Of a stretch of DNA of 37,878 nt, positions 286-2,217 are shown piece after piece. Source of the stretch: Candidatus Hadarchaeum yellowstonense (GTDB lineage: Archaea > Hadarchaeota > Hadarchaeia > Hadarchaeales > Hadarchaeaceae); assembly GCA_001515205.2 (NCBI GenBank), contig LQMQ01000057.1:1-37878 (forward strand), written 5' to 3'. The notes under the pieces were generated by a model, which saw nothing but the letters and a program-made list of their open reading frames with translations, made no database searches and was not told where the DNA came from. Positions within the stretch are counted from its first letter, which is position 1, and each line of letters starts with the position of its first letter. Made by a program: the position numbers and the translations under genes.

Positions 286-879
286 ATGGAGAAACTGTAC
301 ACTTTGAAAGAGGCCAGAGAAATCCTTAGAGTATGTACCAAAACGATCCAAAGATGGGATAAAGAGGGAAAAATTAAATGTATTCGCACACCGGGGAACC
401 GGAGGCTTATTCCTGAAAGCGAAATTTTGAGGATAATTGGAAAAATAAACCATTTAAAAGTTGAAAATGCTGAAAATAAATCTTTAATTACCGGAACCGA
501 GACTAAAAAGGAAGAAACAGTCCTCAAAACAAAAATTGAACCCAAAGAAATTAAAATCAAGGAAGCTGCAAAAATTGAAAAACCAGTCGAACCAATTCAA
601 GAAGCGAAAGAATCTCCAGAAAAATCAAGCAAGCCAAAGGAGATGACGCGTTATGAGATGCTCGACGCCCTTGAACCACCAGGACTTGCGATCCGCGCGG
701 CATTCGGCGATCTGCTCTCGGCCGCCATCCTCTTAAAAAAATTCACCGGTAAAGACCTCTCTGCTCGGGCGCGTTGTCCCGAATCAGTTGTAAACCTGTT
801 TTGCCAGCGCATGCTCTCGTTAGGATATGTCGCGGAAAAGAACGGGGTTTTTGAGTTACTAGTTGAGGTTATCAGATGA
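286..879 (+). CDS. MerR/IS607-resolvase-like N-terminal HTH protein with Lys/Glu-rich linker and C-terminal winged-helix-like domain
   Basis: N-terminus [43 protein letters not shown] matches the IS607 TnpA HTH pattern; no serine-recombinase catalytic motif follows. Confidence 0.8.
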
Positions 880-1754
880 CGACTTTTGATGAAAAAATTG
901 GCCGAGATCAGCGCTTTGAAGCCTTTATTCAGCGATGGGGGTTACAAAAAGACCCTTTTAGCTTTGAAATGCCTTCTATTGACGCCTTTGCACCATCGCA
1001 GCAAGAAGATATCCGAAAAATCAAACAATTACTTCAGGAAGGCAAAGTGGGGGTATTGACCGGAGATCTAGGAATGGGAAAGACCACGCTTTGCGAATTT
1101 TTAGTTTCTGCTTTAAGGGAAGAAAGTCTAGCAACCCCAGATCCGGCCAAACAGGTCATACCGGTTTTTGTGCATGGAGCGGCTTACAAATCCTCCGGGG
1201 AGATCATCAGGGCGATCCTGCTGGCCCTTGAAATGCCTGTGGATAGGGATGACGCGAGCCTTTTTGATGTTCTGAGGAGATGGCACCAAGACCACCAAGA
1301 GCGGCTGGTGATTATCATCGACGATATCCCGGAAAGTGGGGCCAACGTCCTCGAAATAGGCGAATTTCTGCGCGTTCTTTCCGATATCCCCAACATTTCC
1401 ATTCTCATCAATGGAGAAAAAACCCAGATGCAACGTTTTTTAGACAAAGTTCCCTCCTTGAGAGACAGGGTCCAGCTACACGTCGAGCTCAAACCCATGG
1501 GCAAAGAAACCATAAAAGACCTGTTGAAACTGCGATTAAAGAGCGCCGGATGCCTGAATTACGACGCTTTAATAACCCCGGATGGTTTTGACGCAATTTA
1601 CAAACTCAGCAACGGCAACCCCCGGCTGGCTCTCAAGGTCGCCGACAACGCTCTGCACCTGGCCGCAGCGCTGGATGTCCCGATCAACGAGCGTGTGGTG
1701 AAAAAGGCAAACAAAGTACCCTTCTGGAAGCGGCTGTTTGGCTCACGAGGTTAG
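876..1754 (+). CDS. AAA+ ATPase, ExeA/TniB-like
   Basis: Walker [10 protein letters not shown], Walker [10 protein letters not shown]-terminal [10 protein letters not shown] and C-terminal [18 protein letters not shown] overlap with the upstream gene. Confidence 0.85.
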
Positions 1755-1779
1755 CCCGCCCATCGACAACCTTTTATTT

Positions 1780-1802
1780 TTGTTTCCTAAAATAGGAAAC
1801 AA
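1780..1802. promoter_or_regulatory. Perfect palindrome TTGTTTCCTA-AAA-TAGGAAACAA; candidate operator or RBS hairpin
   Basis: 10-bp perfect inverted arms with a 3-nt spacer, immediately 5' of GGAG (1803-1806) and ATG 1807. Confidence 0.7.
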
Positions 1803-1806
1803 GGAG

Positions 1807-2217
1807 ATGACGGGCTTGGAAGGCGAGGAAACGCTGAAAGCGGAGAGCTGGCTGCGCAATAACCTCTTGGCTAAGGTGCTGTTGGAGCGATCCCATTTGG
1901 ATGAAAAAACCTTGAAAGCCCTGCTGCTTTATTACTGGTCTGAAAATCCAACTTTCGAAGATATTGCCAAAAAACTCAAAATTAACAGGTCTGGCGCCTG
2001 GAAAAGGTGGAAAAAAGGCCAAAACGCCATAATGCGCTCTTTTTACACCATTGAGCTGGCAATTTATTCCGGAATTTTGGAAAAGGAAACGGCTGAAATC
2101 CTGATTGACGACTTGATTGACTACAGCGAGCTGGCAAAGGGTGCCGGAAATGTCGAAGAGATCAGGGACAGGATCGAACGCCGAATGGTCCAACTGGCGA
2201 GAAATCTGCGCGGTTAG
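1807..2217 (+). CDS. Small HTH DNA-binding protein (sigma-region-4/homeodomain-like HTH)
   Basis: Motif NPTFEDIAKKLKINRSGAWKRWKKGQNAI; start chosen at ATG 1807 with SD AAGGAG (the ORF track starts at TTG 1738). Confidence 0.6.
   Translation: MTGLEGEETLKAESWLRNNLLAKVLLERSHLDEKTLKALLLYYWSENPTFEDIAKKLKINRSGAWKRWKKGQNAIMRSFYTIELAIYSGILEKETAEILIDDLIDYSELAKGAGNVEEIRDRIERRMVQLARNLRG

Follow-up and report, generated by a model that had tools for sequence, protein, structure and literature searches.

A three-gene cassette of Hadesarchaea with a phased upstream array, a BldC-like HTH protein and an AAA+ ATPase, possibly acting in chromosome handling

Introduction

BldC occupies 9-bp direct repeats in a head-to-tail arrangement, with CAATTCGGACAATTCGGACA as a site, and its residues Lys26 and Arg30 both contact bases (PMC5859096). 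The cassette described here, from a 1.23 Mb genome of the Hadesarchaea (Hadarchaeota), encodes a protein with a BldC-like domain (gene 1), an AAA+ ATPase (gene 2) and a second HTH protein (gene 3), and is preceded by an array of short direct repeats. Gene 1 shares with BldC (6ama/6amk) the MerR-like winged HTH, the equivalents of Lys26 and Arg30 and a GGACA-like direct-repeat core, the BldC site being close to GACAAATGTGGACA of the present array; head-to-tail phasing would be expected on the phased repeats. Unlike in stand-alone BldC, the HTH is fused to a linker, sometimes carrying an HNH domain, and to a C-terminal winged helix. The repeats are also spaced by 10 bp and not 9 bp, gene 1 is coupled to an AAA+ ATPase, and, unlike the BldC regulon, its sites are essentially confined to its own locus.

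The combination of a predicted site-specific DNA binder with an AAA+ ATPase of the same group is known from the Tn7-type TnsD/TniQ-TnsC modules and from MuB of Mu. Unlike those modules, the cassette has a chromosomal core position, lacks transposase and element ends, and its adaptor contains no recognisable TniQ. An array located 5' of an adaptor-NTPase operon, unique to its replicon and co-diverging with the specificity of an adaptor that probably contacts the ATPase, resembles ParMRC/ParABS. In contrast to these systems the ATPase is AAA+ and not ParA, ParM or TubZ, the location is chromosomal, and a third gene, for an HTH protein, is present together with an operator of its own. Gene 2 has an AAA+ fold related to that of archaeal Orc1/Cdc6, but is without the fused winged helix, and real Orc1/Cdc6 genes are found separately in the genome. 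A homologous ATPase domain (24-30% identity) is also present in fused AAA+-winged-helix proteins of other archaea (354-391 aa; L043-L049, L052), whose genes often neighbor those for a 2'-5' RNA ligase, a DUF92-like membrane protein and a protein with a PRC barrel. Unlike the gene 1-2 pair these are single polypeptides, with neither a BldC-type adaptor nor gene 3, and their winged helix shows no detectable homology to the C-domain of gene 1. No relevant report on a TnsC-like archaeal segregation ATPase was found in the literature.

Results and Discussion

The window (the whole stretch of DNA analyzed, 37,878 nucleotides) is contig C55 of the genome. The following features were assigned, numbered from the first nucleotide of the window.

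6-29, + strand: right end of the distal array, GTGGACA (6-12), ATAGACA (13-19) and GTGGACA (23-29)
220-236, + strand: proximal array part 1, ATGGACA and GTAGACA, 10 bp apart, 5' of the TATA-like box
250-260, + strand: TATA-like element TTAAATACTTA; a leaderless start is predicted from sequence near the gene 1 ATG
258-284, + strand: proximal array part 2, TTAGACA, ATTGACA and GTGGACA at exact 10-bp spacing
286-879, + strand: gene 1, adaptor protein, 197 aa (open reading frame and profile matches)
286-441, + strand: BldC-like winged HTH of gene 1 (Foldseek, phmmer); K19 and R23 are the equivalents of BldC Lys26 and Arg30
637-876, + strand: C-terminal winged helix of gene 1 (alignment; AlphaFold pLDDT about 88-96 by block)
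876-1754, + strand: gene 2, AAA+ ATPase of the MuB/TnsC/Orc/ExeA group, 292 aa
1062-1088, + strand: Walker A of gene 2; G66, G68, K69 and T70 invariant
1302-1334, + strand: Walker B region of gene 2; D149 invariant, DE in the third family
1713-1751, + strand: basic, aromatic C-terminal tail of gene 2; pattern kept across orthologues
1782-1800: palindrome GTTTCC-N7-GGAAAC in the gene 3 promoter
about 1807-2217, + strand: gene 3, all-helical HTH protein (sigma-70 region 4-like), 136 aa

The arrangement proposed in the initial annotation, two putative DNA-binding proteins flanking an AAA+ ATPase, was borne out by profile matches, with the ATPase assigned to the TnsC/MuB/Orc group, and the ATGA overlap of genes 1 and 2 was confirmed at 876-879. 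An upstream TTG at 1738 was without support as the start of gene 3. Alba (2303), a KH protein and AspRS follow on the 3' side. The left neighbor was found to be contig C63, which overlaps the start of the window with its last 123 nt and encodes HypE, a PHP protein and the operon of an energy-converting hydrogenase. No mobile element was observed in C63 or at the start of the window, and no transposase, recombinase or element ends were found on either side or at the loci of the relatives, whose neighborhoods likewise held no conserved secretion or envelope partner. The absence of transposase and recombinase genes nearby, as first described, extends to C63; this contig is a hydrogenase locus, and the decayed IS607/Tn element that had been considered was rejected. 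The assembly break itself falls inside the array, and contigs of G004, G012 and G022 also begin in or near it.

The cassette was searched for in 101 genomes, 27 of them in the same order (families f1-f3). It is a single-copy, vertically inherited locus, with Alba and AspRS as neighbors in 22 of these. Close relatives of gene 2 were likewise found in 22, and outside the order the set gave weak AAA+ matches. Gene 3 was detected in 23, with two marginal matches outside (E about 3e-4 to 8e-4), and gene 1 followed the same pattern, save for unrelated MerR-type HTH matches. The three genes are adjacent wherever the contig allows; a lack of co-occurrence elsewhere, named at first as a refuting condition, was contradicted by 22 genomes in which they stand together. 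Gene 3 is divergent from genes 1-2 in f3, and in G003 it alone was detected, at a contig end. In a scan of about 85,000 species, close relatives were confined to Hadesarchaea and one archaeal MAG; the remaining matches were mostly ExeA-like ATPases of 22-28% identity, largely from Omnitrophota. The three-gene module is more than a chance association.

Gene 1 consists of a BldC-like HTH, a disordered linker and a C-terminal winged helix. In Pfam and NCBIfam it matched HTH_17 (3e-11), the BldC subfamily (4e-9) and IS607 (1e-6); the NCBIfam HTH_BldC match, at 3.8e-9, scored 36 bits, under the cut-off of 77. BldC was the best match by both structure and sequence, with a TM-score to target of 0.82-0.89 and 38% identity against 6ama/6amk in Foldseek and 7e-6 in phmmer. 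The IS607 match covers the HTH only (positions 1-50 of 187). Of the 'IS607-type' assignment made at first, the HTH was retained, with BldC as the nearer relative, and the serine-recombinase catalytic domain, which is absent from gene 1, was not. Because a linker and a C-terminal winged helix are attached, the HTH is regarded as a BldC-like domain and gene 1 not as a BldC orthologue. The C-terminal winged helix is the part of gene 1 retained in all three families, the N-terminal domain of f3 being different from that of f1/f2. A descent of this C-domain from the winged helix of the fused archaeal ATPases was unsupported (hhalign probability 2-8%).

Judged from its sequence, gene 2 encodes an AAA+ ATPase that is intact and belongs to the MuB/TnsC/Orc/ExeA group. 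Walker A, Walker B, the sensor 1 Asn, the finger-position Arg and the sensor 2 Arg are all invariant or nearly so. Pfam AAA_22 was matched at 2e-11 and TniB at 0.0018, under its cut-off, and the nearest named relatives are MuB-type phage proteins, the XrtA-associated ATPase, TnsC and Orc1. A MinD-like amphipathic character of the C-terminal tail was considered and rejected; the composition is conserved, but the helical moment is unexceptional and not discriminating. In the G005 orthologue (L031:8882-9835) the short basic/aromatic tail is replaced by a hydrophobic, membrane-helix-like segment near the C-terminus.

Gene 3 gave only weak HTH and sigma-r4 matches in Pfam/NCBIfam. Its predicted structure has seven helices (mean pLDDT 87) with a weak likeness to sigma region 4, and a fold search returned no significant match, only a weak sigma-r4/UPF0122 likeness. 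The palindrome, or an ACTTCC/GGAAGT variant, was found 5' of gene 3 in 22 of 22 genomes, and in several of them it is the sole match in the genome.

Upstream of gene 1, direct half-sites are phased at 10 bp, of the GACA type here and of the GTTA type in most relatives. Three mismatch-free copies of GACAAATGTRGACA are present in 285 bp, compared to 0.4 expected window-wide even with two mismatches allowed. With C63 and the window joined, the 346 bp from HypE to gene 1 hold 11 GACA/GTACA half-sites in two blocks: a distal block, running on leftwards into C63, from -337 to -263 relative to the gene 1 start, and a proximal block from -66 to -8 around the TATA-like box. Both blocks are kept in the sister genome G001 at nearly equal offsets. 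Part 2 of the proximal array overlaps the predicted transcription start and is the only GACA-N6-GACA-N6-GACA of the genome. This motif occurred once each in G000 (the present genome), G001 and G004, immediately 5' of gene 1, and not at all in the other 21 genomes searched, and 10 of 11 GTTA-type phased matches lay within the HypE-gene 1 interval. The phased arrays are almost unique in each genome; weaker two-site targets may be present elsewhere. Autocorrelation of the repeats gave 10 bp for the GACA group (z = 10), 10 and 20 bp for the GTTA group (z = 12 and 28), and 20-23 bp in f3, where the array consists of palindromic GTAGG-N7-CCTAC units. Over 1.26 Mb of G023, an f3 genome, the array is the sole cluster to reach 6 or more of these half-sites within 150 bp.

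Half-site type and recognition residue were found to change together. When chains of half-sites were scored against dinucleotide shuffles, the matching type was significant in 17 of 18 genomes (p <= 0.032) and the non-matching type in none. The weakest chain, that of G009 (p = 0.10), reads by eye as GTTA, GTCT, GTTA and GTAA at 10-bp steps. The residue at the BldC Lys26 position agreed with the half-site type in 18/18 genomes, with K (five orthologues) or R (one) accompanying GACA arrays and N (twelve) accompanying GTTA arrays. The BldC Arg30 position is conserved in the GACA group and is R, L or K in the GTTA group. On a tree of the gene 1 C-domain, gene 2 and gene 3, a single origin of either half-site type was rejected (AU p = 4e-7 each), and parsimony gave four joint switches within f1/f2, two of them forced by strongly supported branches. 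The array adjoins the HTH, so that both could be exchanged in a single recombination event. The presence of an HNH domain travels with the GTTA type, the inserts (L023, L024, L026-L030, L035) always being found with a GTTA-type HTH. The upstream repeats almost certainly belong to the cassette, as had been supposed. Because array and binding domain evolve together, the cassette has the appearance of a machine for handling chromosomal DNA. The co-switching is new here and sharpens the earlier reading. It also provides two natural specificities, GACA/K and GTTA/N, with which recognition of DNA by the adaptor can be tested directly through swaps of residues and sites.

A co-conserved adaptor-ATPase pair, a cognate phased array and an autoregulatory layout were established by these sequence comparisons. 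The explanation tentatively preferred, with a confidence somewhat short of even, is an autoregulated cassette of address array, adaptor, AAA+ ATPase and regulator, most likely acting in chromosome positioning or segregation. On strong sequence evidence, the gene 1 protein would coat its upstream half-sites head-to-tail through the BldC-like HTH, thereby repressing or tuning its own promoter and marking one chromosomal site. Its C-terminal winged helix, made next to gene 2 by translational coupling, may recruit the ATPase, which, like MuB, TnsC and Orc, would assemble on DNA in the presence of ATP; the basic/aromatic tail of gene 2 perhaps touches the membrane. The gene 3 protein probably controls its own level by binding to the palindrome in its promoter. 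Coating of the array, recruitment of the ATPase and action at one chromosomal address are inferred; the likeliest purpose would be to position or segregate the chromosome of an order that has lost SMC.

None of the order's 27 genomes (G000-G026) contained the SMC hinge, which was present in 56 of 74 outside it, including G027, the only sampled member of the phylum outside the order and one that is without genes 1 and 3. The module was absent in the 18 other archaeal genomes lacking the hinge. The loss of SMC is one evolutionary event and its tie to the module is only circumstantial; ParA/MinD-type ATPases are also encoded. The more specific proposal, a chromosomal segregation or anchoring system in which an AAA+ ATPase of the transposon-targeting/replication group is brought in by a BldC-like protein covering a single centromere-like array, with the specificity exchanged as a unit and with tasks of SMC taken over, is regarded as rather improbable.

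Arrays at the own promoter would be equally expected if genes 1 and 3 controlled only their own transcription and the ATPase acted elsewhere, for example in an ExeA/GspA-like envelope or secretion role or in general DNA repair. Such a plain autoregulated operon is possible but doubtful. It fits the overlap of the arrays with the predicted start, their position on both sides of the TATA-like box and the promoter location of the gene 3 palindrome, and an ATPase acting elsewhere agrees with the best NCBIfam match of gene 2, an XrtA/PEP-CTERM ATPase, and with the membrane-helix-like segment in G005. However, the arrays are long, with at least 11 half-sites over 330 bp, and the distal block is located by HypE, far from the promoter. 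Array copies in G018-G020 also persist with no gene downstream in their direction, and the lack of a conserved secretion or envelope partner argues against an envelope role. In G020 (L028:10400-13100; also L029, L030) the array-promoter block occurs three times at a spacing of about 1.24 kb, separated by two DUF4367-like gene copies, and the extra arrays drive no gene in their own direction.

A domesticated transposon-targeting module, in which a TnsD/TniQ-like binder and a TnsC/MuB-like ATPase were kept for a host task, is an unlikely explanation, and one which accounts for origin more than for present function. PHROG 296, 'DNA transposition protein', matched gene 2 over residues 11-280 at 9.6e-18 (about 1e-17), and TnsC was its best near-full-length PDB match (4.6e-6). 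The gene 1 HTH is also like those of IS607 and excisionases, and an HNH domain is inserted into the linker in 12 of 18 f1/f2 (BldC-type) gene 1 orthologues. Judged by eye, genus g6 and G008 seem to have kept the HNH residues, and in G002, G009, G012 and G022 these look damaged. Against this origin stand the absence of transposase, recombinase and element ends on either side, the position conserved throughout the order, and the gene 1 C-domain, a winged helix and no recognised TniQ.

Replication initiation, one of the roles named in the initial annotation, did not hold in the form of a replacement for Orc1/Cdc6; this genome has two full Orc1/Cdc6 genes of its own, and nearly every relative carries canonical copies. 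Against gene 2, TIGR02928 (Orc1/Cdc6) scored 18 bits with a cut-off of 181, and gene 2 has no winged helix. An accessory origin factor, acting in addition to Orc1/Cdc6 on an iteron-like array, would agree with the Orc-group AAA+ and the phased direct repeats. In G023 the locus is at most 51 kb from an Orc1/Cdc6 gene and about 80 kb from the GC-skew minimum, a distance with a chance probability of about 13%, and an origin-proximal location was rejected as not significant. The proximity is that of one genome, and in G000, G009 and G013 the Orc1/Cdc6 genes are on other contigs; this role is considered highly unlikely. An anti-phage or selfish defence cassette of HTH, ATPase and sometimes HNH nuclease is very improbable indeed, for although the HNH inserts resemble ZorE and phage nucleases and the gene 1 HTH resembles mad1, the cassette is single-copy at a fixed position over the order, the HNH is lost or degenerate in many genomes, and the defence matches are partial domain matches with none of full length.

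If the preferred explanation, the array-bound adaptor and ATPase acting on the chromosome, is true, the cassette would be an archaeal DNA machine, shared by a whole lineage, in which a MuB/TnsC/Orc-group ATPase works with no transposon and does not serve as the initiator; it would also be a concrete candidate for chromosome handling in an SMC-less archaeal order. A gene for a PHP-domain phosphoesterase (L022:3900-4592 and relatives) was found near the cassette in most genomes, and directly 3' of gene 2 in f3.
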